Below are positions 13,016 to 36,160 of a stretch of DNA of 64,000 nucleotides, piece after piece. Position 1 is the stretch's first letter; every line of letters starts with the position of its first letter. The notes beneath the pieces are model-generated. The model did no database searches, was not told the DNA's origin, and saw nothing but the letters and a program-made list of their open reading frames with translations. Source of the stretch: Saccoglossus kowalevskii (taxonomy: Eukaryota > Hemichordata > Enteropneusta > Harrimaniidae); NCBI RefSeq assembly GCF_000003605.2, contig NW_003111473.1:189329-253328 (forward strand), in the 5' to 3' direction. Made by a program: the position numbers and the translations under genes.

Positions 13016-16000
13016 CTATTGATTATGTGGTGCTGCTCTTTGCAATCCCAAACTAGCTAAAGCCTCAGTTCTGTCACGAATCCCAGTGAAGGGTTCCAGG
13101 TTCATCCTAGCAGCTTGTGCATTGCTATTCCCCTGAATGTAGTTCATAATGTCATTGTTTGGGCGTCTGGATGAGGATACTTTAATTAATGAGGGCATAC
13201 TATTGCTTACTCTGGGACAGTTCTGCTTCTCAAGCAACTGTGTGAGATGAGGTGAGACTTCTGCTGGAGAAATGCGTGTCTGTGATGCACTGGCAGGATG
13301 ATTGTACAGCTGGGAGTTTGGAGAAGATTCAACCGAAGATTGACTTGATCTTATTTGTGAATGTCTATTTATTTGAGGTGGTGCTCTCAAATCAGAAGCA
13401 GTTCCCTGGTTGTAAACATTTCTTATATTGTCTTTGTTTCCAGGAAGGATAGGGGCTCCTTGCTGCATTGCTGAAGCAACTGCTTGGTAAGTGGTTGCAA
13501 TCATCGGTGCAGAATGGGAACGTGGTTGTGAGATTTGTTCTGAAACTCCTCGTCCTGAAGTAGAGACTGTACTTTGATGAGATGACCCTGTTTTGGAAAC
13601 AGGTGACGATAATACTGATGTTAGGTCCCGAGAGGAATGCAAAGAAGATGTTGATACAGCACTGCTATTTACAGGTTTAGTAGAATTAATGCTGTTCCCA
13701 TGACCGGAGGTAGAATAAACTTGCATTAATGAATCCATCTGAGAAGATGCATAAGCTGAATCAGAAGAGTTTGCAGTGGATGTAATCCCTTGACTGGAAG
13801 GCAAATGTTCTGATGTACCATGTCTATCAGGAGAAATGCCTCTTCTAGGCCTCCCTCTATTCCTCTTGTCAATAACATTTGAAAAAGGTTCTAGAGTTTG
13901 TCCTCTTAACCTAGATACAAAGTAAGATGATTGCATATCCCTGGGATGCATAATGTGCCCAGGATATGATGGCTGGGCATTGCTCCTTGGAGGCAGTGAG
14001 CTGCTGGAACTATCAATTCTTCTTTGAGGAGAACCATCTTGAGAATTCAGTTTTCTGATTATGCCGTCATTTTCAACCCAAATATGTTGCTCATTTGGAG
14101 AAACTGTCCAAGACTTTCCTATAACAAGACCAGCCACACCTTCTTTTGAATCAATACCACCATAAGATAAGTCATTAAAAAAACCAGCAGCCTCTGGAGA
14201 TATTTTTCTCTTCTTCATTGGGACTGTGAGATCTACTGGTCCTGTTCCTTCCTCAGATTCCATCAACTTTTTCTTCTCCCTTACTGGAGTGGTTGTATTA
14301 TTTTCAATTTTTGTCATCAATTTCTCCGGAATAAGCTCTGGAATGGAATCCCTTGAGGAACTCAAACTGTTTTTTGTAACTTTCACAATCTCAGGACTTG
14401 ATCGAGTTAAGTGAGGAGCCTTTTCATCCTTTTCTACAGTACGTGCAGTGGAACTTGTGTATTGAGATTCATTGGAATTTGCAACACGATGACTCGACAC
14501 AGAACCTCCTCTAACACTACTCTTGTTCATTGATGATGTTGGTGGTAGTGCTGGTAAATCTGCTTTACTTGATGCTTCCTCTGCCTTTAAAATTGTAGCA
14601 GCAACATGTAAAGGAAAGTGTGAGAGTAGAGACAGCTTATGTGGATCAGTTATAGTGTGAAGTGGTTTATCTGGTGTTGCCATAACACTTCTTGTTGTAC
14701 TGTCAGACATAGGAGTTGCACTTCGACTGGAGCTGCCACAGGACGATCTTCTCTGTCTGTTCAGTTTTTTGTGTTCTACTTGCAAGTGCATTTTCATCCA
14801 AGCTCTCTTGTTGCATACAAAATCACAACGTCCAATAAGACATCGTAGCATAGAAATATTCTCTTCCATGTCTTCACTGTACATCTGTAGTCGCACACAC
14901 CCTGGCAGTGGCAGTGATTCATCTTCCTCACATAATTCTCTAAACCGAGCTTCTACAGCAATTTGATCATTTGTAGAAATGGTGTGGGCAGATGCAATAA
15001 GCTCTCCACATGGAGGTGCCATGTAACTATCACTAGCCAAATTGCCAACAGATGCATGACCAACATCATGCTGTGGGTCTCTCTGAAGCGGTTCTAGCTG
15101 AGGCATTTCAGCATCTTCAATAATCAAGTCCTTATGAGTAGAAGATGATTTAACTTCAAAACTGCTTCTACTATCTGGTTCCTGTACATCTGATGAAGAG
15201 TGTGTAAGACTTGCATCAGTGTTATTGGTAGTACTATCTTTCTCAGCCTTCTTTAAAGAAGAAGTAATACTTCTGGTCTGAGCTCTACCAATAGGTATGG
15301 AATCAGGACTTCCTTGTTTTTCACCGAAAGAATCATAAAGTTCATTAATATTTTCATCAAAATCCAAAGGCCTTGATAAATCTAAAACTTCTCCAGAGTC
15401 GGAATCGCCTGGCATAATATCAGTAGTCTCAGTCCCACTAGCTTCAGAGTCTGTTCGCTTTTCTGATAGCAATTGTCTAACCGTTTTAATTTTGTTGTTC
15501 TTCATCTTTTCAGCCAAGCGGAGAATCTTTGCATGGCGCCGTATACGATATGGTTCTTTGTAGGGGTCTTTTTCTTCTTCAGATAACGTTAACCACTTCC
15601 CTACTATGTACCTTTTTAGAGATCCCTTGGGTTTGCCTTTAAATTTATGGCTAAGTCTCTTGGACATCCATTTATAGTATCTGTAGAAAGGGGAGCTTTT
15701 AGATGTTGCAGTGTTCAGTTTGAATGCTTCATGTGACATTGACAAAGAATCTGGACCAGGGTTAAAATCTGGGTCTAGATCCGGATCTAAGTCCAGGTCA
15801 AGATCAGGATCTGGACCATCTACAGCATCAGCGATAAACTTGGATGTTTTGAGTCTCTGTATGTTTGTTTTCTGACGTCTTACATATTTTCTACGTTTTT
15901 TAACCTGTCCTAATCCGTCTGGAATTGGCAGTCCTCTGGCAGTCAGTGCCTTTTCCAGGTATTGTTTCTGTGAGTCTAATCCTAGAGATTTCCATTTCTG

Positions 16001-17469
16001 ACCAACAAGTCTCATCACATCAGTGTGACTTCTTCCAGGGTTATCTTTTCTAATCTCCTGGTATACCTCTTTAGAGTAGATGTTGTAGCCGGTACTGTAA
16101 GCTCTTGCCACTTTCACCACCTTTGGCCTATGTGCAAGTGCAGCTTTAGCACTTGACATGCGAATGCCTGTTTTAAGTGAAGTTTTTCTAACCACCAACG
16201 GCCCACCTTTTGCTCTAATATTATAATCTAATTGTTCCTGACGTGGTAAGGCATCCCATTTTTCATGGATCAGTTGATACACTTCCAAGCGACTCTTATC
16301 AGGATGCTGTTTGCTCACCTCTTTGTACCATTCCTTCATGAATACTGCATAGCCTAATGCTTTCTTCATTTTCTTTTTCTGTCGATCATTTCTAGTATCT
16401 CGAGCAGGGGCTTCAATCACTCCGTTTTCTTCAACTTCAACATCTTCATCCTCTTCATCATCATCCATACTAGCAATCGAAACAGCTGATCTTCCATACT
16501 TGCGTTGACGTTTTCTTATCATAGTTTCTCTTGCACGCCTGTGATATGCTTCTTGTTCAGTCTTATCCATTGTCTGCCACTTGGCATGGATGATTTTCAT
16601 AAGCTCCTTTTTTACTTTATCAGGGTATTGTCTTTTCAATGTTTTATGCATGTCCCTTACAAGTATATTAAAACCCCTACGACAGTGTTTTCCCCTTTGA
16701 TCACTTGCAGATTTCACTTTTGGCACCCGTATCTGAAGAATGGATGGCACTACAATATTAGTCCTTAGTTGATGGTGGTCTTTACTGTTTTTCTCGGATT
16801 CCTCTGCTGCTTTTTTGGAACTAGATTTGTTTAGAGTTTTTTGTATTTGTTCTCTGGCTTTAATGTGATAACTCTTTTGTTCTGCTGGATCCAGCTTTGT
16901 CCACTTCCCATGAATCATTCTTCTAACCTCACTCATGGTCTTGTTTGGAAACTTTTTTTTGAATTGAGCATACTTTTCTCTTAAAAAGAATGGATAACCA
17001 TTTGTGAATTTTATTCTTCTTTCATGGCCATCATATTCCTGATGATTGGTTTCTGGTGATGTAGTTTCAGAATTGTTTTCATTCACATCAGGTTCAGCAA
17101 CTTCCTCCACACTAGATTTTGGTTCCATTTCTTCAGTATGGGTTGAATCTACTTCAGGCGTATTAGCGTTAGTGTCAGTGTCTTCCTCTTCTTTCTCTTC
17201 CTCACCTTCAGTAGTAATTTCAGTCTTTTCATCACTACTTGAAGGAGGAACAGCATTCATGCATTCCTGTAGAGCTTCTTGGAGGAACGGTGAACCTTGA
17301 CTCATCCACAGTTGAAGAGGCTTTTTGAAGAAATACCACTCATCAGCTGGGACTTGTTTATTGGACATTTTGGGTGCAGACTTGGAAGCAACTTTCCAGA
17401 ACTCTCTGCCTTCTTCATATCTACATCGATAAAGAAAGATGTCTTCCTCAGGTATTTCAGTAGGACGAC
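13016..17469 (-). CDS. PBRM1: Polybromo-1-like protein, terminal coding exon: end of BAH domain, five HMG boxes, C2H2 finger, AT-hook
   Basis: This terminal exon starts after a TTTTGCAG acceptor and runs open for 4,454 nt to the stop. Entry is at phase 1, matching the exon at 19470-19639. It opens with the rest of the BAH domain; RPTEIPEEDIFL closely resembles human PBRM1 BAH2 (RPTEIPENDILL). An acidic linker follows, then five HMG-box-like segments at about residues 594-657, 702-764, 810-864, 900-955 and 1034-1092 of the joined 1,927-residue model, each with the W-x4-5-L...Y pattern. Box 5 is the most diverged. A Asp/Pro-rich DPDLDLDLDP stretch lies between boxes 4 and 5. A C-x4-C-x12-H-x4-H finger follows (C1320, C1325, H1338, H1343), then an AT-hook core RGRPR (1648-1652), and VLDLS (1138-1142) and PVDLT (1521-1525), which resemble CtBP-binding motifs. 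The rest is Ser-rich and probably disordered. The family acts in PBAF nucleosome remodelers in the nucleus. Human PBRM1 has one HMG box here, so this tail is strongly altered. Confidence 0.92.
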
Positions 17470-19469
17470 CTGCAAAATCAGTTAGGTACACAGTAAGGAA
17501 CAATAATAATGATGATTAATTCAATGTACAAAGCTTATAGGGAATGTAAATGATTTAAAACAACAATGAATTTGGTACAAGTTGGGTTAATTACTGACCC
17601 AATCCAGAGGTTGTGCTAGATTTGATGTCAAAAATTTCATAAAAAAGTCTGTGACCGAGGCAAAAGTTTTCCCCACATAAAAGGCATCTATTTGTTTTGT
17701 CAACGAGTGAGAAATAGAAATTGTTTTGAACAATATTAGTGTAATGTGATTACAATATAATCAAAGAAAAAAAAGAACTCCTGTGTAATATTTTTCTGTC
17801 TAATTAATTTCAGAGCATCTATAATTCAATTTAAATCCGATTTGATATCAGAAATGAACTAAATGTATTATTATGCATAGATTTAGGTCTATGTATTGTT
17901 CTGGGGAACGTACAAAGTTTTATTTTAATATGATAATTATTCCTAAACAAGCGGCCAGTTGGCTGAGATAGCTCCGCTGTTAGCAATGCACATTTCAATT
18001 AAAGAACAGAAGATATCATTAGAAAATGAACAATATGTATAGTATCAAAGCAATGGGACTTGTTTTCAACAAGAATTCAAAAATATCACTTTTTACCAAA
18101 AATGACAAAAATATTCACCAAAATTAGACAATTGAAGATATCATCATGAAATGAACAAATCTGAGAGAGGTCTACCCAAGGTACATATACACCAAGTATC
18201 AAATCATTCAGGCTTGTAGTTTTTAAGAAGTCGAAAAAAAAAAAACATTGACACATACGACGGACAATCACTCATATGATAGGCTCCGCTCGACAAAGTC
18301 GACAGTGGAGCTAAAAAATTGGAAAGCTGAAGAGAAATTAGATTGTTGCATTGTCTTAGAGTATATATGCACCAAGGTTCATTAAAATAAGATAATGAGT
18401 AGTTGAGATATTGCTGGAAATGCTGAAAACTGCCTAATTATTATGAAAAAAAGGTAATTGATATGCACAGATGTTAATGCAAAACAATGTGCCAGACCAT
18501 CTATGTATTAAATTTCATTGAAATGTGATTAGAACCAAAAAATTATGAATCATTATGAAAATTAAGTAATTATCATGAACAGATTTTAATTGAAAACTGA
18601 GCAGGTCTGTGCATTGCCCTAGAGCATCTATGTACCAAGTTTCATTCATTGAAATGGGATAATTAGTACTTGACTTATTGATGTGAAAACCAAAAAAATG
18701 GCTAATTATGCAAATTTTGTAATTAATATGCACAGATTTTAAACCAAAACCAATCTTGTCTGTGATAACTTTTAGAGCATCTATGTACCAAGTTGTATTA
18801 AAATATGATAATTAGTACTTGAGATATCAGTGGAAAAGCCGAAAAATGTACTTATAACTATGCAAATTTGTAATTAATATGCATGGTTTTGTACCCAAAA
18901 ATAATCAAATCTGTGCAGAGAACAGAGTCCAGAGCATCGATGTCCCAAGTTTCATCAAAATCCAATAAGAGGTCTTTCAGATATCACTGGAACAGTCATG
19001 GAACAGCTAAAAATTAACTTATCATGCAAATTAGGTAAATAATATGCATAGATTTCAACCAAAACCTAATCAAATCTGCGCATTAGCCTAAAGCATCAAG
19101 TTTCATCAAAAACCAACATATGGTTCTTGGGATATCAGTGGAACAAACATACACATACAGACGCACTAAATGCAAAGACATTGTGTGCTTCGCATACGGG
19201 AGTCAAAAACTGATGATTTATTATCCTTTAGTACAGACTTGATCAATGATGTAAAGCAACTAGCTATATCCTGCTTTGATTAATGCTTCCTAAACCCAAC
19301 ACTTACTGTGCATACTGTCAATGTAATGCACCCTAAAACCTAATATGCATACTGTCAGTGCATTTCTAACACTTGTTTTGATTCAACTTTTGGTATAATT
19401 GTCCCTTTAATTACATGCTTTTTATAATTGATATATTTGATACTGGTATCATGTATGGGTAAAACTTAC
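17470..19469 (-). other. PBRM1: Intron carrying a repeat array
   Basis: The intron lies between the two BAH-encoding exons, with donor GTAAGT at 19469-19464 and acceptor TTTTGCAG ending at 17470. Most of 17945-19200 is dispersed repeat, described separately. Confidence 0.85.
17945..19200 (-). repeat. Dispersed repeat with internal units of about 150 bp and a GC-rich hairpin end
   Basis: The reverse complement of about 18060-18315 matches 63489-63730 closely, including the GC-rich inverted repeat AGCTCC..GTCGAC..GTCGAG..GGAGC and the text 'atgagtgattgtccgtcg'. Beyond it, 18318-19140 holds about five diverged units of roughly 150 bp sharing 'taattaatatgcacagatttt', 'agagcatctatgtaccaag' and 'gagatatcagtggaa'. 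The segment ends in 'cagacgcactaaatgcaaag'. No protein is encoded. It resembles a non-autonomous element or a dispersed satellite. Confidence 0.8.
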
Positions 19470-19639
19470 TTCTTAAATAATCCGAGAAGTGGAGTACAGT
19501 ACATTTACCAATCACATCAGACATTTGACGGACAATAGTATGGCCCTGGAATACTTCTTTCTCATAGAACACTGTAGTAGCAAGATGTTTAGTGTCTTCT
19601 GGGTAGAGGAAGACAGGTCCCTGGAACCAAGGCACACCA
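19470..19639 (-). CDS. PBRM1: Polybromo-1-like, BAH domain exon (middle)
   Basis: The exon has 170 nt, an acceptor CTGTTCAG at its right edge and a donor A|GTAAGT at its left edge, with entry at phase 2 and exit at phase 1. It encodes GVPWFQGPVFLYPEDTKHLA through GKCTVLHFSDYLR. This is the core of a BAH domain: GPVFLYPEDT, the FYEKEVF helix and the GKCTVL strand all have counterparts in human PBRM1 BAH2 (GPIFIHPEET, FYKKEVF, GKCAVLSFKDFL). Joining to the next exon restores DYLRSRPTEIPEE without any gap relative to the human protein, which fixes both splice sites. Confidence 0.93.
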
Positions 19640-20169
19640 CTGAACAGATAGAGACAAAGTTAAATTTATGACTGCACCTACATCACTGACAAACAGGCAA
19701 AGTTTGCTGTAAGACGTGCATCATATAATTTTAGTATTTTGGCTTTATCCATGAATTTATTAATTTGAATACTATAGTTAATGAGTTGCATGTAGAATGA
19801 GCAAACATTCTGGTTAGCTAACGATGTGTTTAACATAATGTCTCTCAGTTTATAGTATAAATATATAGAATTTATTCACCATGACTATGGTGCACCACAT
19901 TCCGAATCAAGTTAGTATCAAATATCATAGCCGATATAAGGTAAAAGTCACCCTACCAGTAAAACTAATTTTATGCGGATTTATACACAATAAATTGTAT
20001 GACTGTACAATAACTCATGTTTATTTTGTCGAATGAAAACCATCAAATTACATTTCTGTCTTGTTTGGTTATAACCAGACTACACGTATTTGTAATGCTA
20101 GTTTATACTTGGCTTTAGTACTTAGATAATACCATGACATCACTCCAGCATTATATGTTGTGAACTTAC

Positions 20170-20351
20170 TCTTTGTCTTCCCAGAGGCTGTCTATTTTAG
20201 CAATACCAGGTTTATTCCGACCATCAGGATGCAAGTAGACGCAATCCCCTATTTTATAACACCCAGTTTCAGTCACGTACTGCTCATAGAATGGACTACC
20301 ATCATCTTTTACTAATGGTTCATTGGTTCTCATATTAATTAGCGGTACAGT
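20170..20351 (-). CDS. PBRM1: Polybromo-1-like, BAH domain exon (start)
   Basis: The exon has 182 nt, acceptor ATTTTACAG and donor GA|GTAAGT, with phase 0 in and phase 2 out. It encodes a short linker and then SPFYEQYVTETGCYKIGDCVY and IAKIDSLWEDK, the first strands of a BAH domain. GCYKIGDCVYL resembles LKVGDCVFI of human PBRM1 BAH2, and the order FYEQ followed by GDCV is also as in human BAH2. It therefore follows the bromodomain-6 segment directly. There is no exon for the other BAH domain of the family between 20352 and 20866. Confidence 0.93.
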
Positions 20352-20454
20352 CTGTAAAATGAATACAACAAGTCATAGTATATTTGCATTTGACTGAACT
20401 AACATTTGAGGACACAGCACTATGTCTTGTCTATTAACAAAATCTGTTGAAGCA

Positions 20455-20560
20455 TGGCTGATAAATTGTCGAGGACGCATAAAAAGAAAACGGACGAACG
20501 GACGGACAGAGACCGAATTTTTGGACTTCATCCGAACAGGGACATGCACCTGTAAACCCA
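20455..20560. repeat. Short dispersed repeat fragment
   Basis: The sequence around 'gacagagaccgaatttttgg' followed by 'acttcatccgaac' resembles, at the same orientation, the end of the element at 26870-26950 ('ccgatttcggactgcgtccgaac'). It lies in the intron between the bromodomain-6 and BAH exons. The antisense open frame here (20373-20561) is part of this repeat and is not a missing exon. Confidence 0.5.
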
Positions 20561-20866
20561 ATATGCATAATCATGATACAAAGTTTCAATGAAATTTCCC
20601 TGTTCATCTCCAAGAAGCGAAGAACATATTTATGTATCAGAAATTAGCATTAGCCATACTTGACCAAATTATAATGAGAAATGATTGCATATGCAAGTCA
20701 TTGTACATTGTCTGTGTGTTAAGTTTGAATGTGATCAGTCAAAGCATGTATGAGAAATTACTCTGGACGATCTCAAATTAATACTCCCTGGGTACTAGTA
20801 AATCACTTTAAGGATATATACATCATACCCACTATAGTACCAAACATAAAAGACATGTTTTCTTAC

Positions 20867-21079
20867 CATATTACTATAGTCAACATCCAGCTCTGTCTCT
20901 GTCTCTGGCATTCGCTCTTGTTTCCGCACTTTGTCATGAGCTTTTTCTGCTTTTAAATCAGACTGAAGGTGAACATTGATATAATGCAATGCTGGAGAGT
21001 TCAAAACTTGTCCCCATTCACACACCTGTTCACGAGATAATATGTAGTACTCCTGTAGCCTTATTGCAGTGTAATAAAT
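20867..21079 (-). CDS. PBRM1: Polybromo-1-like, bromodomain 6 end and charged linker exon
   Basis: The exon has 213 nt (71 codons) and is phase 0 at both ends, with acceptor TTTTCTACAG and donor ATG|GTAAGA. It encodes IYYTAIRLQEYYILSREQVC, then LNSPALHYINVHLQSDLKAE and a charged linker. This matches the last helix of human PBRM1 bromodomain 6 and what follows it (IYEDAVELQQFFIKIRDELC, LLSPALSYTTKHLHND). In human PBRM1 the linker leads to BAH1; here it is spliced to a BAH2-like exon. Confidence 0.92.
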
Positions 21080-21676
21080 CTGTAGAAAAGTCAAGATACA
21101 TTGTGAGTATATTGTTACAAGTACAGTTACACTCTAGTTCATGAACCATACCATACATTCTGAAATGCTTCAAACTTTACTATCAGTTTATGGAACCTGG
21201 TCATTGGACATCATTTTACTTTTCTTGATAATCATATTATATCATGTATCTTGACTATCAACTATCATGAACGTGGTATGAATGGATAAACAATGCTTTG
21301 ACAATGCCCCGTTGATGACAGGGCATTGACGTTGACATTGACGTTACAACAGGTGCCTAAATAAACTGATCATGAGAACCGATCATTGCAATACTGGTAT
21401 CCCTCTATCCCTTGAAAGATTCTTAGCGGCATTTGATGTGACTTGCATTCAACCATTGGAAATTTGCATATCAAAAGTATCACTATATGTGATGGGGGGG
21501 GGGGGGGTTGAAATTAAATTGTAAGCCAATGATTAAATGATTTATTGCGTTCTAGTGTACAACGATGATGGTCAGATGCAAATATTCACCATTTTAGTAA
21601 TATTTTCTACTGTAAGCAAACTACGAATTAGCTAATTCCAGAATATAAGTGATTTGATGACACTTTACTTAATTAC

Positions 21677-21806
21677 CTCTTGATAGTCTTTGGATAGACG
21701 TCTTATTTTTTCAAATATTGCAAATAAATCTTTTTGCATCTGGTCTAATCGTTGATAACATCCAGTGTAAAGTTTATTTGACACTGTGCTGAAATCCATT
21801 ACTAAC
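21677..21806 (-). CDS. PBRM1: Polybromo-1-like, bromodomain 6 central exon
   Basis: The exon has 130 nt, with acceptor TTTCATTGTAG and donor GAG|GTAATT, entering as the third base of a codon and leaving at phase 0. It encodes LVMDFSTVSNKLYTGCYQRL and QKDLFAIFEKIRRLSKDYQE. It corresponds to human LTFDIIRKNVENNRYRRLDL and QEHMFEVLERARRMNRTDSE, helices A to B of bromodomain 6. At the position of the usual binding asparagine there is Ser in my alignment, so acetyl-lysine binding by this domain is doubtful. Confidence 0.9.
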
Positions 21807-24649
21807 CTACAATGAAAGGATGAAAAACAAGAAGTATTTATTTATTTTTGTCTGTATATCTACTTTCATTCTTACTGTCATCTACAGTGGAGACTGACAC
21901 CAGCATATGGTAGTGGTACTACAAAGAACTTAGTAATAGTCCCCATCATCTAACCACTGACCCTGGCTAAATGTCAGTAAGGCATCAACACATTAGTTTA
22001 AAGGTATGGCAAGGCTTTTTTCTGGATATTAATTCAATTTTGCAGAATTAAATCACAAAAATTTTGCTTGGGAAGACAGTCTTAAATAACAAATTCATTG
22101 GTGGTTTGTAGTATTTTTGCATCAAAATATTTCATTCATTTATTTATAGGCACAAAATGCATTACCTTATGAAAATTAAAACCCAACATACTAATGACTA
22201 GGTATGTTCATATTTTAATTAGTATTCTTGTGGGAGGGGGTAATCAATTCGAACAGCAGAATCACAAATGTGAAATTCAAAATAATATTCTGACTACAGT
22301 CGACTGTAACAAAGAATCATGCAAGAATAAAGTGTCAGATCACATCTTCAAGCAAAGATGGTTTCAGCAATATTGGGGTAAGGTGGGGTGGGGTGGGAGG
22401 CGATCCAGCCTAAGATAAGGCCCCATTGAGAGAAATATATAATATAAAACAAATAAAATTTTGAAAAACAATCACATTTGACTAAATCACAAGACAGCAC
22501 AGGCAACTGCAAAAAACATCTACATTTACCATGTAACATAATACCAAGTAGTCATGCATATCATGAATAACCTTCCTTGTTACTGTCACTAGCCATATCC
22601 ATGACCATATACAAAAGGTCAGACACGCATGTCTGGATATAGTACTCGGTAACAGTAACAGGGGTTGCCCAACAAACATGGTGCAAATTTCAACTATTAA
22701 TGTTTTTTTCAGACATGACTGAACACCAATGAATTACATTTTAAAATGGAAACAAAGAAAGTAATTCTGTTTATTGAGCGGAAAACTGTGGGTGGTTAAA
22801 TTCATAATATATGCATTGTGTAAGAAAGTTTAGAGTATCAGGAAGCATGCAACAAATGCGTAATATGTGATACATAATTCAGTACAGTGACAATAATGAA
22901 GCTAGCCCCACATTTGGATACATTTTATAAAATTAAGAGTCTAATGAGAAAAAATCACAAGTGGAAATGAAGTATATAAAAGTAATTCCTGATTTGTAGG
23001 ACATGTGGCTCTGTTGTGTCTTGTAAATTTCCCTACGCGACTTTTGTACTAAGAACTATGATTAGGTATGTTATTTGCACTTTACGACAGGGCTAAGGTC
23101 ATCAAATCTGCCATAAAGCAAAATGATACATCAATTCTGAGCTGTTTGTTTGTCTGTTATTTCCTCCAATGGGGATAGCTTCAACTCTAGGTACATTCAA
23201 TGAGATGATTCATCTTTATTGCAGTACATAATTTAGATATTCTCCCCAGATACTACTGCTCTAGCACTAAATGAGCTGCAATGCAAACTATTTTATCACA
23301 AACGTATGGACACAATTTTAACTCTTTAAGATGAGTGACTCTCAATAAAATAAGGAATTGTTCTTCTCTCCGTCTGCAGTTGTCATGGGAAGAACACAAG
23401 AGGTTTACATGATATAGACAATGCATATACGTAACATGACCGAGGGAACCCCAAACTTACTTATTAGAGTTTCCTGACTGCTGAGTTGGTACTGGTTGGC
23501 TGATATAAAGACAATGTTGTTATAGTTAAAATAGATGAAGATATAATAGATGAAGAAGACAGCTAATGCAGTCTAATCTACAATAATATGACGTCACAGA
23601 TCACAAACAACATACAGGTTGGAAAATATGTGCCAGCCATAGAGTTAATATTAGCAATGTTAGCTCACCTATTTCAAGAACAACAGCTTTAAGTTAGTTA
23701 CAGAACAGAGTACAAGTGTGGCTTAATAGGATAACCTAACTGTAGATACAGTATGTCATATATAAAATCCCCAACAACCAAAAAACATTAAAAGTTTACA
23801 CATACTGGATAAATAAGTATTATAATCTAGTCTAGTCTAGTCTAGTTAATTGATTGGTTGCATATATCAGTGTCTTTTTATCTGACCTCTGCACTGATCA
23901 AAGAACCGATCAGAGCTGAATCCCTGAGTTATTAGTCATTTATCATCATTAGAGAAGAGTTCATTCTGTATATGTCAGTGATTCCCTGTTATTGTATGAT
24001 ATCTCTCAATAAACCAAGTCTGCCAGTCTCTAGATGTTTTTAATCTATGAACTAAAAATAAATCAAGTGTGAACTAACTCTTAATTAACACACTTTTCTA
24101 TTTTGTTTAATTTAAAACAATAAAAAATGAATGAATTTGCATATTCTGATTTGGAATCTTTTACCTTGTGACATTATTTTGTTTTTATAATCAAATTAAA
24201 TTGAATAAATAAAACTGATTTTGTATAAATTTAAGCGTAAACAAGATTCACCTGATATTTTGACTAAAGACCCCCCCCCCCCAAAAAAAAAAGAAATCCT
24301 GCATAACTACCTTGTGGGCTTGGCACTCATCAATACAAACTTAGTGTGATACTGTATTTGCTTTATTAGATGTGAAACTTTAATGAAATAGAGCTCATAA
24401 AAAAAATTGCATTTATTGCATGCTGGATAATTGAAATGCACTTTATTTTGACCACAGACATACATTGAATGAATGAATGTGTTTCTAATAAAGCAAATAT
24501 GGTACATCTTCACTCACAATTGTTGCCAAGACTGTATTGTATACATTATAGAAATTCCGCTATAACTATGTAATAATAATTATTTTTTCTTCATGTTATT
24601 ACTTTAATAATACAGTGTTATATCACAGCTATTAATACAAACTACTCAC
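21807..24649 (-). other. PBRM1: Introns within bromodomain 6, holding one microexon
   Basis: The introns on either side of the 39-nt exon at 23461-23499 hold AT-rich sequence, a (CTAGT)n run at 23826-23845 and homopolymer tracts of C and A near 24270. Nothing else is recognised. Confidence 0.6.
23461..23499 (-). CDS. PBRM1: Polybromo-1-like, 39-nt microexon in the bromodomain 6 loop
   Basis: Exactly 39 nt lie between a GATATAAAG-flanked acceptor (ATCAG) and a perfect GTAAGT donor. Its phases fit both neighbours (2 bases in, 2 bases out). Including it gives SDT-IQPVPTQQSGNSNK-LVMDF; skipping it gives SDT-M-LVMDF, also open. So it could be a cassette that adds 13 residues to the loop between the first two helices. 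The human domain has a comparable loop (VDPNFPNKPPLTFD), which favours inclusion as the normal form. Confidence 0.75.
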
Positions 24650-24861
24650 ATTGTATCGGAACATTCCCGTTCCAGGAAATTGACCAAGGCAGTCATCAAG
24701 TAACGTCCTGATTCATCTTTATGGTTCAATATATTACCATGAATTGTTTTCAGTATGTCTTGTACGCATTGCTGTACATCAGGTACTTCAACTCTGTTAT
24801 GATCTAAATCAATCAACTCAGCTTGTGATTGTAACAGTACACAGTGTAGAGTCAACGCATC
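24650..24861 (-). CDS. PBRM1: Polybromo-1-like, bromodomain 5 end and bromodomain 6 start exon
   Basis: The exon has 212 nt, acceptor CACCGACAG and donor AT|GTGAGT, with phase 0 in and phase 2 out. It encodes DALTLHCVLLQSQAELIDL (last helix of bromodomain 5; human DALVLHKVLLETRRDLEGD), then VPDVQQCVQDILKTIHGNIL and NHKDESGRYLMTALVNFLE (first helix of bromodomain 6; human VPNVTLLIQELIHNLF and SHQDDEGRCYSDSLAE). The boundary inside the last helix of bromodomain 5 joins cleanly to the next exon. Confidence 0.92.
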
Positions 24862-25659
24862 CTGTCGGTGTCAATAAAAGGCAGTTACACATACTGTATA
24901 TAATTGCTCACAGTATTCAAAGCACTCACATGGCAGATAATGAAATCAATGCAAGTATTCCAAATACAGCTGCACAATAATTTCACCTTTAGCTATAGGG
25001 ATGAAAATTAACAAATATACCACCTCTAGTCTAATGGGTTGACTTTAAAAAACTGATTCTCCACATGGAAATAGAGTAGTCTAAACAAGTCAATTTGTGT
25101 TACCTTTCATAAATAAACCTCAAGAATATGTTTTGGTCACAATATCAGTCAAAACTTGCTTTTCAGACACACTGCTCAACATTTTTTTAAAAACTAATTT
25201 AGGTGTTTCTATTTCAGTGAAACTGTACAATGATGACACATTGTACTTTGTAAAATTGTTATTTCTGCATTTACTTCGATGGTTGCCCAAAATTGGTCAA
25301 TCGGTTTTCAAATTTTGTTACTCCATGACAAATGTGGTTTTCCATGATAACAACCACCTGTAACATGGTTCTGCAAATTGAAAACATTTTGACATAAAAA
25401 CAAATACAAGCTAGTTTGCCTAGATGGAATCTGACAGTATGTGCATGTGTGAATTTAAGCAATAAAGACTGTATACACATAAGTGGAGATGCTAGTTTAA
25501 CAAGCCATGCATGGCACAGTCCCCGTTAGTTATTAAATTTAAGAAATATAGTTTTGTTTATAGTAATATAGCTGGAATATAACCATGTCAGGAATATGGT
25601 TTTTTAACATTAAAATGATTGACATTTGTATCTGATCATCAAACAAGTACTTGATATTT

Positions 25660-26371
25660 NNNNNNNNNNNNNNNNNNNNNNNNNNNNNNNNNNNNNNNNN
25701 NNNNNNNNNNNNNNNNNNNNNNNNNNNNNNNNNNNNNNNNNNNNNNNNNNNNNNNNNNNNNNNNNNNNNNNNNNNNNNNNNNNNNNNNNNNNNNNNNNNN
25801 NNNNNNNNNNNNNNNNNNNNNNNNNNNNNNNNNNNNNNNNNNNNNNNNNNNNNNNNNNNNNNNNNNNNNNNNNNNNNNNNNNNNNNNNNNNNNNNNNNNN
25901 NNNNNNNNNNNNNNNNNNNNNNNNNNNNNNNNNNNNNNNNNNNNNNNNNNNNNNNNNNNNNNNNNNNNNNNNNNNNNNNNNNNNNNNNNNNNNNNNNNNN
26001 NNNNNNNNNNNNNNNNNNNNNNNNNNNNNNNNNNNNNNNNNNNNNNNNNNNNNNNNNNNNNNNNNNNNNNNNNNNNNNNNNNNNNNNNNNNNNNNNNNNN
26101 NNNNNNNNNNNNNNNNNNNNNNNNNNNNNNNNNNNNNNNNNNNNNNNNNNNNNNNNNNNNNNNNNNNNNNNNNNNNNNNNNNNNNNNNNNNNNNNNNNNN
26201 NNNNNNNNNNNNNNNNNNNNNNNNNNNNNNNNNNNNNNNNNNNNNNNNNNNNNNNNNNNNNNNNNNNNNNNNNNNNNNNNNNNNNNNNNNNNNNNNNNNN
26301 NNNNNNNNNNNNNNNNNNNNNNNNNNNNNNNNNNNNNNNNNNNNNNNNNNNNNNNNNNNNNNNNNNNNNNN
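25660..26371. other. Assembly gap, 712 N
   Basis: A run of N lies in the intron between the two bromodomain-5 exons. Open frames across it are artefacts. Flanking exons are continuous in the model, so no known coding piece needs to be inside, although an extra exon cannot be excluded. Confidence 0.98.
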
Positions 26372-26489
26372 AATAGGATTGTCAAACCAATATATCTGTC
26401 TATCTATGACATGATGTATAATGAATCGTTAAAATTTGAACATAATCAGTGAAAGCAAGTCAGAGATATGGCACGAGAACCACATTCAT

Positions 26490-26950
26490 TGAAACAAAAT
26501 GGCCGCCAGTTAGTCATTTTGAATCTTATCTGAAAAACAAAATTATTTGCATCAAGGTCCCATAATGTCTAATGTATATATCGAGTTTGAACAAAATTCA
26601 TTTGTAAACAGCCGAGAAATGCTTGATTTTTAGGATTTTTCAGCACAAAAATGGCCGCCATTCGGCCATCTTGAATCAGATCATAAAACAAAATCCATCT
26701 GTAAACACCCGAGAAATGCTTGATTTTGATGATTTTTAGCACAAAAATGGCCGCCATTCGGCCATCTTGAATCAGAACGTGAAACAAATTGACGTGCATA
26801 TGTATAATATCATATATGATGTATGTGTGAAGTTTGATTGTGATTGGTCCAGACATTTCTAAGATACAGGTCCGGATGCATGCACAGACGCACGCATGCA
26901 CGGAGGTCAAAACATAAGTCCCCGATTTCGGACTGCGTCCGAACGGAGAC
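26490..26950. repeat. Dispersed repeat with two copies of a 97-bp unit
   Basis: 'gtaaac(a)gccgagaaatgcttga' occurs at 26604 and 26701, and 'aaaatggccgccattcggcc' at 26649 and 26746, both 97 bp apart. A third diverged 'aaaatggccgcca' is at about 26496. ATGGCCG and CGGCCAT form an inverted repeat in each copy. The right end (26880-26950) resembles the fragment at 20455-20560. The minus-strand open frame here is repeat-derived. Confidence 0.8.
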
Positions 26951-27337
26951 TAATAATAACCCTCCATTGAGTATCTAATCTCTTAATCTATACAAACAAT
27001 AAAATTGAAAAATTGAGTTGTTATTTCACATACAGATTATTTTAATAATTAAACAAAGGTTGTAGTGAATATGAATAATAATAATTTAAACATAATTGTG
27101 AATTGAATTTCCAACATTTTATAATAAATATATAAGTTTGGGAAAAAACGACAACAATAACAATCTCCAAACTAATCTACCAATAATGCTGTCAGGCATA
27201 TATATTTGAATCATCTGTAAATCAACTAACACTTAGTATAGAACTATCAATAGATACATGATGTATATTTTACTGTTAACAGCCAAGAACATAATATACA
27301 AGTCAAGACATTGAAAATTAGTAGTTGTCATTTCCTA

Positions 27338-27351
27338 CCACTAGAGGGCAG
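27338..27351 (+). promoter_or_regulatory. CTCF-like motif next to a splice donor
   Basis: CCACTAGAGGGCAG fits the CTCF core consensus CCASYAGRKGGCRS at every position. It lies in the intron directly after the donor hexamer of the bromodomain 5 exon. A weaker relative occurs near 7586-7600. Binding is inference from the motif only. Confidence 0.35.
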
Positions 27352-27357
27352 CCTTAC

Positions 27358-27525
27358 CTTATGTATTTGTGTGTATGGTTTGTATACCCTGATGGTATTA
27401 TTAAACAATGTCAGCAGATCCTCTATCATTTCTTCAACAGAGTAATATTGATCTTTCTGCATTCTACCAACAATACCACTGAAATCAAGTGGTCTGCCCA
27501 CAATCTTGTAATAGTCAGGATTCTC
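27358..27525 (-). CDS. PBRM1: Polybromo-1-like, bromodomain 5 central exon
   Basis: The exon has 168 nt (56 codons) and is phase 0 at both ends, with acceptor CTATCTACAG and donor AAG|GTAAGG. It encodes ENPDYYKIVGRPLDFSGIVG and YYSVEEMIEDLLTLFNNTIR then VYKPYTQIHK. This is the most typical bromodomain stretch in the gene: the ZA-loop PDYY, the 'RPLDF' strand and FNN. The counterpart of the binding asparagine (human TYNEPES) is Tyr here (VYKPYT), so canonical acetyl-lysine recognition is probably lost. Confidence 0.93.
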
Positions 27526-30500
27526 CTGTAGATAGAAACACATTATATTCTCAGAATTAACAAAGTGTCGGTATTTGTATGCTCAGACATTTCACGCTAG
27601 AGAAAAGAAACCTTGGAATATAATCAACGGTACACTACAGTTTTCAAAAACGTATTTACTTTCACACTAGACATATAGGTTAAACTTGACTATTTTTAAA
27701 CAAAATGACTTCTTGAGTCAATTAATCCACTTTTGTTGCTGAACAGGATTATTATGACTCCCCGTGACATGGTTTCCCAAATTCACAAACTTTTACAAAG
27801 AGACCAGAATTTTGTCACCGGTCTAAAAATGTGACCATAACACTCCTATACGGATTGCACTGGCTTCCTGCTGTTTATAGAATCCAATTTAAAATCCTGA
27901 TGATCACATACATATCACTGCATAAATTAAACTCTTCTATCTATATATATAGGACAACTCTCTGATACAGCAACAAACACAGAGGAAAGAAAATTCCAGG
28001 GCTCATGTTGATAAGTCAGTGCAGAGGAAATCCTCATTCAAGTTTCACCTAAATCATTGTCAACATTTTCTATTTCCATGTTGTTGGAAATAATCAATCA
28101 GAACAATATTAGAAAACCACATTCTGGGTGATGAAAAAAACCCGGCCTCTCAACACACAATACTGTCAGAAAAATAAACTTCTCCTGTCATCCGCAAATC
28201 ATAAATAAAATAATGTAACTATTATGACCATGCCCCTTGAGAATCTAGCTATTAATAACAAACAAGAATTCAATTCAAGAAGGCTGCCTGGTATAATCTT
28301 TTCTATACAGGGCAAGAGTTGAATAAAAGTTTGGAAACAATAAAATATTATATCTAAACAAAATTTTTACACTGAAAATACTGGTTTAGGTTGCAAAAAA
28401 ATTAAGTCATCATAATAATCTAAAAACGTATTTAATATTAGTTTTTGTAAAAATTTATCCCCCTACAAAAAATTTACCAAGTAATTATTTGGTAAATTTT
28501 CATAACTTATTGATGGCTACTAAAATTCTGATTGATAAAAGAATAATGTTTTATTTGGTTCTCCAAAATTTCATCTTAGATTTTTTCCCCTCATTTTTTG
28601 GAGAGTCTTAGGAATGGTAGAAAAAAAAACATTACTCGCAATGAATCAGCTAAACCATACAAAGTTATATTTAGCGACAAATGTATAAACAAAATGATAT
28701 AAAAATGTAGTATACAAATTATGTAATGTAAATACTGGTATTATTAATGACTAAAGATGAACAGTAATTACATTAAAAAAATAATTAATATTCATGTTCA
28801 TCCATTAAGTTGAAAATTGATCTGTGATGAAGTTACCAAGCATACTACTATAACAACCTATTTATGTTTTTGATGTACTGCAGACATACTATTGACAACA
28901 AATTCTTTCAAAACCTTTCAAAGCCTGGAAACATGATTTTTTTCCCTCCAGAACTCTTGTACATTCTAGACTGCGTACAAATCCTGTTACTGCTAGAGCC
29001 AAAACTAGAATTAAACCATATATTGAATCCAGATTCAAAACCTTACTTTTTAATGTTCATTTTGTGAACTATCAATATCACTGATGGATAATAGGCATAC
29101 CTGTATATAAAATGTATATTACCATAATTATGCTCTAAGCTGGCAAGTAGGTTGCATTCAGTCAGCAGCAAAGAATCAAGATTAGGCACGACATTAAAAT
29201 ATTGGTGATTAATATCTACTATTTAGTGCAAATATCATACATTTAATTGGCGACCAAACAAACTTATCATTGTCAAAAAATAAAGCCTCACGAGATCTTT
29301 CAACCTAACCCTAGTATTAGTGTATACATGTAGTACATCTATAAGATGAGACTTGTTTTATCAGATATTGAAACTAAAAGAGGTGCCTTCACAGGATTAC
29401 AGGGTATGCTGAAACCATAAGGTTGGTGGTTTTAAATATAATTTTTTAATTAAAATGACAAAAATATTAAGTAAAATTAGAGAAATGAAGTTGCCATTTT
29501 GAAATGAACAAAATACATAGTGAGCATTTTAAAATGAAAGAAATCTGAATGAGGTCACCCCAAAAGGACCTAACATGACAAGTATGGAAGTAATTTGAAG
29601 AGTAGATTACAAGAAGAAGTGTTATTTCTAAAAAGTTGACACTGGAGCCAATACAATCAATCATCTCAATAAGTTCTGCTTCAGTAACCAGAAACTTAGA
29701 TTAGATCTGATCAGCATAGATCTTGGTCATTGCAAAAGTTGTTTTTTATTGTTCGGTAATCTTTTAATTTAATTTAAGAAATTTAGTTCAAGACAATGTG
29801 GCTTATTTTATGTGCTCTCAACTTATTAATCAGAAGCCAACATGGCAATGTTGTTAGTACGTGTATGTGTTATTCCCAGTTACGCCAAGGATAATGTCAA
29901 TGTTCCCATTACAATAGTTTGGATGACATATGTTGGTAATATTCTACACAACACAACTGTACACTAAATGAACAGGGTGTTCTCATCCATATTAATTATG
30001 CAAGTTAATATTACTAGCAATGTGTAACAATCAATCATAGAGGATGAAAGAAAATGTCAAAAACAAAAATTGAAACAGAATTATGGTGTTCACAGTTCAA
30101 CAATCAAATTGCTTTAATACACCATCATTTATGCATAGTTTACGAACAGTCTGTCAGCCAGCTGATATAGCATTGTAGTATATGATTGAATTATAGAACA
30201 CATACGGCACATACCTGCATAAATTCAATGCTACATTATCAAACTAAATGATAAAATGAAAAACATTTCATACAAAATGACAATAATGTTTTAGACAATG
30301 GTGCTAAGATAATCAAGAATCAATAAAAAAAAAAATACCACATGAACAATGTACAACGATTTTCACTCCAGAAATATACATCAGGCAGATTGTTGATAGT
30401 ACATTTGATCAAAATATATGCTAAATAGACAGTTTGGGATTGTAAATGAAAATAAAAGAAATGTAATGGAACAGACAATAATTAACATATAATTTTACAG

Positions 30501-31427
30501 TTTCATCTTGAATTACAAGTTAAAAAACAATTTTGTTGAGAAATAAATAGCAGTCTGTGTCAGAGGTCAGCCATATGTTGAGTCGAGAATTTATCAATGA
30601 CCCTCGTGCGTTAATTGTTGTCAGTATTCATCTATTCATGAAAAACGTATCAAGAAAATAGTTACCAAATTGATATTTCCAAATTCCATGTAGCCTAGCT
30701 TGGAAAGAATTCTTTATTAATTGTCTAATAAATTGCTGTTGTTGTGGGGGCAGGGGGTCAGTTCCGAAATCATGCAGTTATACAGACTGCCACTAACATG
30801 CTCAGTTGATAACAGTAATCAAAACAAGTTCAATCAAGTTTAAGAGTGTATATAATAATTAATAGAGAGATCACATTAAAGACTGTTCAGCTACAAGATA
30901 ACTTATTTATTGACCATTGCTTTCCAGTTATCTCTAGAGCATCAATTATCCAAACTATAGTGGGACACAAGGGTAAAGTTCAAATTATATAATGTCATAA
31001 CAACCTAGGACAGTCCAGATTTATTACACTCAAATTCAATCATGCAAGCTTTCCAATAACAGGACTCTTCATACCTACGTGTTAGTTATTAAATAAGGTT
31101 TGGCTGTGATAAAAGAACGCCCCACTCACACAACACAAAAATGTTACCATACATTTTTCCATAATTTCTTTTGTTAATTATGGACAAAATTTATGCAACT
31201 GCCTACAGGAAAAAATTATGTGGGTTTTGCAAATGATGATAAAAATTGATATTGTTAAACTGAAATAAAATGATGATTCATAATAGTTCATCAACTTTGA
31301 ATCACACATTATTTGTAGTATTTAAAAACCATTAATCAACATAAATAAAACCAATGGAGCACAGTATCCGGACAATGGTAGTTAGGTTTAATTTGACATT
31401 CTGGTAAAGAACATAATACATATTTAC
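27526..31427 (-). other. PBRM1: Intron, no exon recognised
   Basis: This 3.9-kb AT-rich intron has a diverged stretch at about 29440-29660 that resembles the dispersed repeat at 18060-18310 ('aaatgacaaaaatatt', 'gttgacactggagcc'). Nothing coding was identified. Confidence 0.5.
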
Positions 31428-31598
31428 CTTCTGTAAAGGAACCTTTTGGAGCGACTCAGACAATACTCTACCATTATCATCTTTGTAGCCTTGTATCCGG
31501 TTGAAAAGGTGTAGAAGTTTCCACTTTTCTTCTGGTGGCGTGACCCCCTGTTGTCGAGGCATTATGTAACATGTGCATTCACCCTGTTCCCTGTAATA
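31428..31598 (-). CDS. PBRM1: Polybromo-1-like, exon with the start of bromodomain 5
   Basis: The exon has 171 nt (57 codons), with acceptor CTTTTTGTAG and donor AAG|GTAAAT, phase 0 at both ends. It encodes YYREQGECTCYIMPRQQG, then EEKWKLLHLFNRIQGYKDDN and GRVLSESLQKVPLQK. The second half corresponds to the first helix of human bromodomain 5 (NEVYEAVKNYTDKRGRRLSA, LPSR). A second AG eight bases in (TATTACAG) could be an alternative acceptor, giving a start at 31590. The ATG at 31562 lies in frame ahead of the domain and might itself be a start if upstream exons are untranslated. Confidence 0.87.
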
Positions 31599-34500
31599 CT
31601 ACAAAAAGATAGAACTCCATCAATGACATGAATTCAAATATTTAAAGGCCACATAAACATTTCTGGTTAAACCAACCAATTAACCAACTACCGGTAATAA
31701 ATGATTTATCATATAGATCACCGGTGGAGGGAGGGGGGGGGGGGTCTACTCCAAATCAAAATTAGTATATCATAAAACAAAGAAGGGCTACAACAATACA
31801 CCATCTATGTACATTATATAAGCAGAGTGTGACAGTCATCTGTTACACACATTAACATGGTGATAAATGATGTGGTAGATGAAAAAAACATCTATCAAGA
31901 TGCAGAAGTAATCAATCAATAAATGCTGTAACCAGCAGGTACATGAATACTCATTCACACCATGATTCACTTTTTAGCCACAATACCGACACGTTTTATT
32001 TTCTCCCTATACATAATACGTAGTAGTAGTCCATATTTTGTAAATATAGCACATGATACTCAATCTTCAGTTTTTAGTTTCCATCACTCCACATTTGAGT
32101 TCAACATTTTTTTTTAATCACACAGGAAATGATGGAAGATGTTGACACGTTTCAAAATAAATTCAATGTGCTGATTGTCATTAAATCATCCAATACAGAG
32201 ACAAGATAAATAACAATCATGATGCCTGTGATCAAACATTGTCACAAATTATACATAACCAAACGCAGAATGGATGATCAGCCGCTAGACAAACTACCAT
32301 CCTCTAAGGAATGGTAATATTTGCTTTTATATCAGTATTCCTGACAACCAATTTATCCAATTTCAGGTGTCTCCGATTTGAAAGCCTTATTCATAGAAAG
32401 ATGCCATTTAATTCAGTGAGGCAGTCATCAATGAGCATGTTGTGAGGCACCATGCATAATGGCTATGTCAATAAAACGCACATATCATGTATGCTAGAAA
32501 TGTTGACATTAATCGAATAGAACCATATTAGAAGATCCCACAAGGTTTACATTAACAACTGTCAATCAAACAAGCACACTTCAAACAGCAGTACAAATAT
32601 ACATACATGTAGTTACAGACCTTGCATGCAAGATTTGAGAAACATTATTTACTGTACTGATAGATTCTAAATCTAAATAAAGGCAATAATTATTCATGTT
32701 ATAAACATGGATGTTTATATTAAAACTCTATTTAATAAACTTGGCAATTGACATGCACTTTTCTACAGAGTACAAGAATCCAAATGAAGTAACACAAAAT
32801 TTTCACGGGGGAACAAAACTATGGTGTTCAGTCATCCTAGGAATTCACACGTGGTTGTATTGATATAAAGTGCATTTACTATGGCAAGACTAGAAAATAC
32901 TACGGTAATAATGTATCTATTGGTAGGGGCCAACTATACACCCAAGACCATCTGTTGACCTGACCTGACCTTACAATTACACATACATTAAATTACTTGA
33001 AAAATTGAACTGGAAACTACATGTAAGAAGATGCATTAACTACAGGACAAAAATTTACATGTGAATCAGAACCCATATTATGTGTTCATCTACATCCAAT
33101 GAACAAGACCAGTGAAACAGATTGTGATTGTTCAAACATATGTGTACATACATGTAAGAGTAAGAACACAAAACCTATTATTGTTTGTAATGGGTAAGGT
33201 CAGTGAAAAAAAATATCATACCTGGAAAGTTGTACAGGAAAAGCACAACTCAAATTACATATAATAAGAGGGAAAATGCATTAAAAATAAGTGTTTACGA
33301 GGACAGGCCTCCTCTTGCAGCTTGCCTGCAAGGCCTTTAGCTTGTACATACTAATCAAGTTGGAAACCCTATACTGCAGTGATATCAAGGCACTGATGTG
33401 TCAGTTCAGTATGTACATAAGACACCAATCAATAAATGATTTAGATATGAATATCTTTTACCTATATAAAGTGATCTGGACCAACAGCTGATATCAATCG
33501 ATAGTATATGATGTACAGAGAACCAACATAAATATTGAAAACCCAGTCACATACATATTTAATTTAGTCACAGCCCACCCCCACATGCCATACACAATAT
33601 TTATATCGCTCATATGGAAAACATCATTACAAAATAATGATTAACACCAACATATGTTATTTCTTTTAAAGCAAATACTGATATGCAAAAATAATATAAA
33701 GCTTTGATGATGGTTAATTAAATCCACTAGACAGCGCCATACAACCTTATGGGGCCGTGTAGTCATTATTTGTCAATGGTCATATGACTCATATCCTTGT
33801 TATTTTATATACGTTGATATCATTCAGTAACATAAAAACGTTAATGTAGTATCAACTTGTGTGTTGCTATGACACTACACAATAAACATTTATCACGACA
33901 GGCACTTTACACAGATTGGTTTGCAATAAAGTAATAAAGGTTCTCTTCTGAAATGATGGGCTTGGTTTAATAAACCTATGCCAATTAATGGCTTACGAAA
34001 CGAGTAACCATGGTTACACCCATTGTGGAATGCAATCCACATTTGCATATATCACTCAGTTGATGAATTATTTTAATGAATTGAAATTCCATGACCTTTA
34101 TTTGCCAGAATTGTAAGTAAAAAAATATTTGATAATTATTATTAAAAATTCCACTCTATCAGATATCTTTTAAATGAGACTTTGTCTTGACATTTCCTAT
34201 AAGTGGTTTTAATATTTGTCAGGAGTTGAAATAAAGACAAATTATGAGATAGTAATTTATTGCTTCCTAGATGTGCGTCACTACCAATTAAAATAATTAA
34301 CTGAATTGTCTGTTGTAAATTAATAATGCAGATTATAATGAACAACTTTCATCTTCAATCATCCACCTCAGTGACCACAAATAAATATTTGGGTAAAGCT
34401 TGTTAGACAAATACATTTCTGAACATGATCAGATTATAGAGACAGTTCCCAGAAGCAAACTTATAAATAACATGCAGTTTTCAAACTACTCAATCTGGAA

Positions 34501-36104
34501 CCATTTTAGCTATTCTAAATCTCACCTTAGTTGAATGATACGAGATAGATGTACTGATCTATTATATACATAAAAGTTGTAATCATTTACATACATATAA
34601 AAGTTACCTAATGGGTTGAGTCAGTGAAACCATGCATATCGCCTCCTGAGTGTCTGAAAAACATCAGTTATTATGCTATGGATAATCTCAACACAAGTAC
34701 ATTAGACAATCCTACGTTGTGCATATTAAATAAACCATTGCGAGTAACCCTCCACATCCGTATTTACATCTGTTAGTTCATGCTAGGTGTAATGAATATT
34801 ACCATAAAGTAACACAATTAAACATGGCAGGTACAGGGTGCTTTAGGAGCCAATAGAAAGACACTTAAGGAGTTATCTGATGACGTACATACATATTCAG
34901 ACAGTTGCAATTCTTGATGCCATCAAGGGTCTGCAGCATTTCTAGATAATATCCAGTGACTTTATTTATGTTTTACCATACTAAATACAGCTTAGAGTGC
35001 AGTACTGTGCATTAGCTGTATTGCAGATGTCAAATTGCAAAGCTAATCGTTGATTGTTCCCACAATAGTGTAACTGATCCATGCGCTTTGACAACAGTAA
35101 TACAGTTAGAGTGGATGAGACGAATTTCACATGCAGTTATATAACCACAACCATTGTAACTATAAAAACAGCTTTGATAAGCTTTCAATTGCAGTTGCAA
35201 TTAATGTACTAATTTGACCTACGACTATTCTGATAAAGAATTTTTCTCCCACGTTTTATATTACTAAGTTAGCATCTGCCAATCATTGTTTACATAGCAT
35301 TACAAAAACCTCATGCATTTAAACATGTGACCTTGGTAGATTTGCACCAAATGCAATTATATCCCTGATTACAATGCAAGATATTACAACCCTCTCATGG
35401 TTTAACCAATCATGCATGCACACGTTGTATATATTACAAGTATCTATGATTAATATTAAAATGTCATGTCCATTAATTTGTTTGGCAAAATGCCATACAC
35501 TCCTGTATCATTTACTTTTGCTCTTAAGCATAAATGCAAATGTAGTATTTATCTAGAATGGGGAAAACATTAGACTTTTGCTAGGTTCTACAATATAATG
35601 AGAAAAATATAAAATATCAAGTATCACAGAATACAACAAATATTTTTCAGAGCATTTGGTATATACACAGGTCTAATTCTAGATAATGCCATTTTGGGTA
35701 AACCACTGCAACATCAATTATGTATGACAAAGGTGTGACAATTCTCATGTCAATGAAAAACAGGAAGAAATCTATCAACTTACGACTTTTATAAAGTAAT
35801 TGAAAAAAATCCTGTCACTTAAAAAATCAAGTATGACGACGAATCATCCACTGTGTGGCCCGTAATTTCTGTGTTGTTAACGATCAGCATGCTATAATGA
35901 CTGCTGTGTAAAGCAGTAAAATAATGATGGTGCAACAAACTCAAGACCTGCGCATAAATCAATGGTTATAATTACAAATACTGTATACCTGCATGTTTTA
36001 ATACATAATGTATTGAAAACACAGAGGGGCTTTAGTAAATACAAGTAGACAAAGTCCATTTAGTATAAAATGTATGCCAAATCAAGCTATCATTAATAAT
36101 TTAC
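31599..36104 (-). other. PBRM1: Intron, no exon recognised
   Basis: AT-rich sequence. An exon-like segment at 34608-34654 was examined and not accepted. No PDYY-type bromodomain codons were found on the minus strand. Confidence 0.45.
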
Positions 36105-36160
36105 CACCTCTTCTAAATAAGACACATGCATGGTTTCTTTGTCTCCCATCTTTTTGATAC
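36105..36160 (-). CDS. PBRM1: Polybromo-1-like, candidate first coding exon
   Basis: ATG at 36149-36147 in a good context (AAAAAGATGG) opens 15 codons, MGDKETMHVSYLEEV, that end at a donor GTG|GTAAAT. Spliced to the exon at 31598 it reads ...SYLEEV-YYREQGECTC..., open and in phase, making a total of 5,784 coding bases (1,927 residues plus stop). The composition is coding-like. The acceptor at its right edge (AATAAG|GT) is weak, with little pyrimidine tract, so the exon may instead extend further right or be a chance match. No part of bromodomains 1-4 is encoded. Confidence 0.42.

Follow-up and report, generated by a model that had tools for sequence, protein, structure and literature searches.

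What kind of polybromo does the hemichordate Saccoglossus kowalevskii encode on the minus strand of the 64,000-nucleotide stretch of contig NW_003111473.1 analysed here (RefSeq assembly GCF_000003605.2, forward-strand positions 189,329 to 253,328; hereafter the window)? A sequence-only reading had rebuilt a polybromo gene at this locus that lacked bromodomains 1-4 and the first BAH domain and ended in five HMG boxes. Sequence comparison indicates that the gene is a real, intact member of the polybromo (PBRM1/BAF180) family, unusual in its domain set. The explanation that we favour, at a probability of about 0.45, is a contracted polybromo in which an internal deletion would have fused the front of bromodomain 1 (BD1; other bromodomains are abbreviated likewise) to the last helix of BD5. 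Whether this contraction, the boldest element of the claim, is real depends on a gap in the assembly. The loss of the first BAH domain (BAH1) and the HMG array are solid, the fifth HMG box less so, and hold whichever view of the bromodomains is right.

An intact gene of the PBRM1 family

When the first 636 residues of the predicted product were compared with solved protein chains using phmmer, human PBRM1 (chain 7y8r_U) was matched with an E-value of 2.2e-143 and 482.2 bits. PBRM1 stood above every other molecule among the 38 distinct solved sequences with E-values up to 1e-8, the next being yeast Rsc1 and Rsc2, which were matched through the BAH domain (62.8 and 58.8 bits; E 1.9e-16 and 3.2e-15). 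The main stretch of the PBRM1 alignment places query residues 7-446 on human residues 670-1104 (BD5, BD6, then BAH1), and a second stretch places residues 302-605 on human 1157-1444 (BAH2 to the HMG box). Within the first 509 residues, Pfam models identified Bromodomain in 2 stretches (61.5 bits) and BAH in 1 stretch (76.9 bits). This match, together with a shared order of bromodomains, BD6 and the conserved stretch after it, BAH2, an acidic linker and HMG, upholds the assignment to the PBRM1 family made from the letters alone. The predicted protein departs from PBRM1 in that BAH1 is gone, five HMG boxes stand in place of one, only two bromodomains are present as assembled, neither of these carries the acetyl-lysine-binding Asn, and the docking helix of the human protein is not recognised.

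The minus strand between 13.0 and 31.6 kb forms one animal-type gene of eight exons (31,598-13,016), which is presumably expressed. Splice sites are GT-AG throughout, with AG preceding all eight exons and GT trailing the seven internal ones, and the exon-end phases (0,0,2,0,0,2,1) all match, with zero internal stops. The product is predicted to have 1,887 residues from an ATG at 31,562, or 1,899 counted from the start of exon A, either of which lies within the continuous frame of 1,882-1,927 residues proposed before. Exon A (31,428-31,598, with the possible start codon) encodes the front of the first bromodomain, exon B (27,358-27,525) its middle, from PDYY to the BC loop, and exon C (24,650-24,861) its last helix, a linker and the first part of BD6. 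The second part of BD6 lies in exon D (21,677-21,806), and its last helix and the conserved stretch after it in exon E (20,867-21,079), which tblastn aligns with human residues 860-933 (E 7.6e-9). Exon F (20,170-20,351) holds a BAH2-type linker and the start of BAH2, exon G (19,470-19,639) the middle of that domain, and exon H (13,016-17,469) its end, the five HMG boxes, a long low-complexity tail and the stop codon. The introns measure, from A to H, 3902, 2496, 2843, 597, 515, 530 and 2000 bp. Exon H is contained in an open frame of 1,499 codons and has the best coding score in the window.

Nine phase-matched exons had been proposed, eight of which stand on their splice sites and phases. The ninth, near 36.1 kb, is plausible as a first coding exon, though unproven: the candidate, MGDKETMHVSYLEEV (36,105-36,149, minus strand), is an ATG-started stretch of 45 nt with a possible donor and a coding score of 6.3, a value attained by 5 of the 531 comparable stretches with the candidate counted in (ATG-started open 45-mers on the minus strand outside the exons). 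Nothing links this stretch to the gene, and the open reading frame around it had no Pfam match.

Domain composition of the predicted protein

Two bromodomains had been claimed, and two were found as assembled. The second is, by position and sequence, BD6, while the first looks like a hybrid. Scored as a whole, the first bromodomain is nearest human BD5 (201, against 174 for BD1), but this lead is owed to the helix at the front of exon C, which scores 44 with BD5 and 14 with BD1 (14 to 21 across BD1-4). Taken alone, exons A and B are nearer BD1 than BD5, both in an anchored alignment (170 versus 149) and in phmmer (56.3 versus 50.9 bits), and exon A is nearest BD1 (69, against 39 for BD5). These comparisons lend moderate support to a first bromodomain that resembles BD1 in its front part and BD5 in its last helix, encoded by exon C; the earlier description of a gene beginning at a bromodomain-5-like segment is at the least incomplete. 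At the end of helix B, where acetyl-lysine-binding bromodomains have Asn, the first bromodomain as assembled has Tyr (exon B) and the second has Ser (exon D). Human BD1 also has Tyr at this position (Y127), and the Tyr may thus have been inherited instead of arising by decay.

No further bromodomain was detected among the 2,072 open stretches of at least 20 residues in the six frames of the window, the next match having an E-value of 3.9. The profile used for this search was built from the six human bromodomains, contained no window sequence and was run with filters off; it matched exon B at 4.1e-15, exon D at 0.00085, exon A at 0.0011 and exon C at 0.37. As a sensitivity control, human BD1-4 were left out of the profile in turn and their halves spiked into the search, and all 8 halves were recovered (E 4.5e-21 to 0.0026), so that ordinary bromodomain exons in the upstream 32 kb should have shown; very diverged or very short ones might escape. 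This search supersedes one whose profile contained the window's own first bromodomain, which inflated the matches to exons A and B (5.6e-10 and 1.1e-23) and had a weakest control of 0.096.

The single BAH domain that had been reported is also present, and it is nearest human BAH2 rather than BAH1 in all three of its exon pieces (exon F 76 versus 66, exon G 135 versus 103, start of exon H 95 versus 50) and as a whole (299 versus 212). A BAH1/BAH2 hybrid was considered on account of the BAH1-like residues WED and HLAT in exons F-G and of the phmmer alignment running through BAH1, and was rejected because every exon piece prefers BAH2. BAH1 would be expected in the E-F intron (20,352-20,866, minus strand), which is 515 bp long and free of N. 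No BAH1 signal was found there, six-frame scores against BAH1 being 26-34, compared with 212 for the window's own BAH domain. With neither room nor signal for it in this gap-free intron, the absence of BAH1 noted previously appears firm, misassembly aside.

The extended C-terminus described from the sequence likewise stands, its extra HMG boxes all lying in the one large last exon. The Pfam HMG_box model (PF00505) found five stretches with a total of 101.2 bits; tested singly against the cut-off of 25.4 bits, four of the five boxes passed and the last did not, so that the count of five includes one weak member. Box 1 (16,832-17,017; 38.2 bits) and box 4 (15,926-16,108; 40.1 bits) lie within tblastn alignments to the HMG region of human PBRM1, box 2 (16,508-16,690; 32.1 bits) aligns weakly with that region (E 0.003), box 3 (16,193-16,366) scores 27.5 bits and box 5 (15,521-15,706) 19.2 bits (E 0.0017), all on the minus strand. 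Box 4 was considered as the ancestral HMG box and set aside, because the human box aligns with boxes 1, 2 and 4 alike and identities are too low. In the tail, an RGRP sequence (13,838-13,858, minus strand) was picked out by eye as a candidate that we take to be an AT-hook-like core and that Pfam did not report, and a candidate PVDLT (14,222-14,242, minus strand), noted by position, presumably resembles the CtBP-binding motif. A C2H2-like pattern seen by eye near 14,842 was discarded, as it had no Pfam match.

Contraction or hidden array

A gap of 712 N (25,660-26,371), the only large one in the window, lies in the B-C intron and separates the two halves of the first bromodomain; its left flank is an interspersed repeat. 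The earlier claim left this gap out of account although it splits the very bromodomain at issue. Loss of bromodomains 1-4 does not stand as it was put, since the front of the first bromodomain looks BD1-like, with moderate support, and the gap falls exactly where BD2-BD5 would sit.

In the contracted polybromo that we favour, a working but strongly diverged gene, the internal deletion would have left one hybrid BD1/BD5 bromodomain followed by BD6, the assembled distance would be right and the gap would conceal repeat only. The E-F intron would have lost BAH1 by deletion, and a single HMG box would have become five. The repeat at the left flank of the gap recurs at 58.7 kb and, as a fragment (20,686-20,755, E 6.7e-5), in the intron from which BAH1 is missing; as it both borders the gap and lies in that intron, repeat-mediated deletion is possible. 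On the other hand, the gap could hide the region from the last helix of BD1 through most of BD5, in which case the gene would be the fast-evolving polybromo of the species with a long bromodomain array, unusual only in lacking BAH1 and in its additional HMG boxes. We regard this as a real possibility, though one with well under even odds. It would account for a gap in precisely the B-C intron, for the BD1-like exons A-B next to a BD5-like exon C front, for the Tyr shared with BD1, and for the lack of any bromodomain exon upstream, as expected if BD1 comes first. Interspersed repeats such as that on the left flank are common sites of assembly breaks, and an ordinary polybromo is in our judgement commoner than a contracted one. 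However, the corresponding human residues (136-747, from the last helix of BD1 to the last helix of BD5) number about 610, equivalent to about 1.8 kb of coding sequence, and this with its introns would have to fit into a gap estimated at 712 bp. No bromodomain signal came from the sequenced parts of this intron to either side of the gap; the junction of exons B and C is in phase 0, and across it the completed domain aligns with BD5 without an alignment gap.

A gene truncated at its N-terminus, with a diverged BD5 as its first bromodomain and a complete PBRM1 elsewhere of which it would be a paralog, seems to us improbable. It draws on the higher score of the whole first bromodomain with BD5 and on the best stretch of similarity running collinearly from BD5 onward; moreover, the score of 201 with human BD5 does not exceed the 213 between human BD1 and human BD5, a divergence that suits a fast-evolving copy without proving a paralog. 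Against this, the BD5 lead stems from exon C, and exons A and B by themselves favour BD1. Less probable by far is that the gene is a pseudogene in decay, or that scaffolding at the gap joined two loci into a chimera: the gap does divide exons A-B from exons C-H and neither bromodomain keeps the Asn, but 1,887 codons run on without stop or frameshift, no splice site is damaged, the exon phases on either side of the gap agree, and a single domain is completed by its two halves.

Several observations weigh against the contraction, or against the change of function that might have come with it. The B-C intron makes up 2,496 of the 64,000 bp of the window, so that a gap would fall inside this critical intron by chance about 4% of the time, whereas hidden exons would predict it. 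In bootstrap resampling of alignment columns, the lead of BD1 over BD5 in exons A-B recurred in just 80% of draws, exon B alone favours BD5 (110, against 101 for BD1), and the best single phmmer stretch is collinear through BD5, BD6 and BAH1, with BAH2 and the HMG box in the second stretch. Human BD1 and BD6 reportedly strengthen H3K14ac binding, without shifting DNA as BD2-5 do (PMC10164552, in its available text), so a missing Asn need not mean that a bromodomain makes no contribution. For the histone pocket of human PBRM1, the accessible part of PMC10425938 describes a BAH1 cage of H976, W997 and Y999, and BAH2 residues K1167, R1175, P1225 and E1263 tested for histone binding. The positions of the cage are G, V and L in the window's protein, and of the four BAH2 residues E1263 alone is retained in the alignment, which makes it doubtful that this BAH domain would contact histones in the manner of the human ones. 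Finally, human PBRM1 docks on the PBAF base through a C-terminal helix at residues 1514-1524, according to the portion of PMC9741621 consulted. A conserved counterpart was not accepted, as the score of the best match, PNNDIMNYIQG near the C-terminus, was reached in 553 of 2000 shuffled versions of the full tail (60 of 2000 when the last 120 residues alone were shuffled). As the human docking helix is not recognisable, it is doubtful from sequence that the protein still joins PBAF.

Fragments of one repeat family were located by blastn at 26,954-26,775, 58,689-58,852 and 20,686-20,755. A likely further fragment of the gap-flank repeat family lies at about 20,545-20,437, where a similar start, about GTTCGGACNCAGTCCGAAAT, was noticed by eye.

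Function, relatives and surroundings

PBRM1 marks the PBAF complex and is an important tumour suppressor in kidney cancer, and its tethering to chromatin is attributed to acetyl-lysine reading; BD2, BD4 and BD5 of the human protein are jointly required to bind H3K14ac, N739 being the critical residue of BD5, and a triple mutant of these bromodomains loses its affinity for chromatin (all from the available part of PMC6441893). If the contraction is real, the predicted protein would have no canonical acetyl reader and would presumably rely on its five HMG boxes, the AT-hook-like site and perhaps BAH2. Chromatin contact could then have shifted from acetyl-lysine reading to DNA binding, with the HMG array and the AT-hook-like site holding bent or linker DNA and BAH2 possibly supplying a histone or DNA contact, so that the protein might target or retain a remodeller at open DNA with no need for H3K14 acetylation. 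The broadest form of this proposal, in which a lineage-specific polybromo gave up acetyl-lysine reading through the BD1/BD5 hybrid, the loss of BAH1 and the growth from one HMG box to five, and so returned to an Rsc1/2-like layout of two bromodomains, one BAH and a DNA-binding part, is rather unlikely in our estimate. Were it true, it would describe a remodelling complex guided by DNA shape instead of H3K14 acetylation, and the natural swap of acetyl-lysine reading for an HMG array would let the part of PBRM1 responsible for targeting be tested. Even on a cautious view, the loss of BAH1 and the fivefold HMG array form a natural experiment that bears on what BAH1 and DNA binding contribute.

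Yeast Rsc1 and Rsc2 share with the predicted protein bromodomains, one BAH and a DNA-binding motif. The yeast proteins have two bromodomains and an AT hook; the DNA-binding part here differs in being an HMG array placed after the BAH. The predicted protein is much closer to PBRM1 (482.2 bits) than to Rsc1 (62.8 bits), which speaks against orthology to Rsc1/2. Rsc1/2 have been tied to polybromo through multiple bromodomains, BAH, and an AT hook or HMG box (PMC7308085), and the kinship is supported by phylogeny (PMC9170682), both as stated in the excerpts available. Several HMG boxes per chain are also found in HMGB1 and UBF. Proteins of that type are not known to have a bromodomain or BAH, and the boxes in the window are 13 to 27% identical to those of HMGB1 and UBF1 and 16 to 36% identical among themselves. 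In the open-access literature searched, judged by titles and the beginnings of abstracts, no polybromo with multiple HMG boxes was described; a scallop study names a polybromo-1 transcript and, in the part available, gives no domains (PMC6476759). A search of virus and prokaryote contig collections confirmed no relatives of exon H (10 pattern matches in the prokaryote set), as expected there.

Elsewhere in the window, positions 1-270 of the plus strand probably form the last part of a coding exon belonging to a convergent neighbour gene, Pro/Gln-rich (VPYPYPTTAQG...QTFTGD), with a stop at 271; by coding score this stretch ranks second in the window, behind exon H, and it has no Pfam match above the cut-off. 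At 51,818-52,015, two identical 74-bp copies enclose a gap of 50 N, as from unmerged overlapping contig ends. An interspersed repeat occurs in several copies and both orientations (63,483-64,000, 17,997-18,322, 41,461-41,712 and 29,434-29,512), with a 157-bp tandem unit at the end of the window, and 35-bp tandem repeats are present at 4,394-5,178 (22.5 copies) and 8,958-9,670 (20.7 copies).

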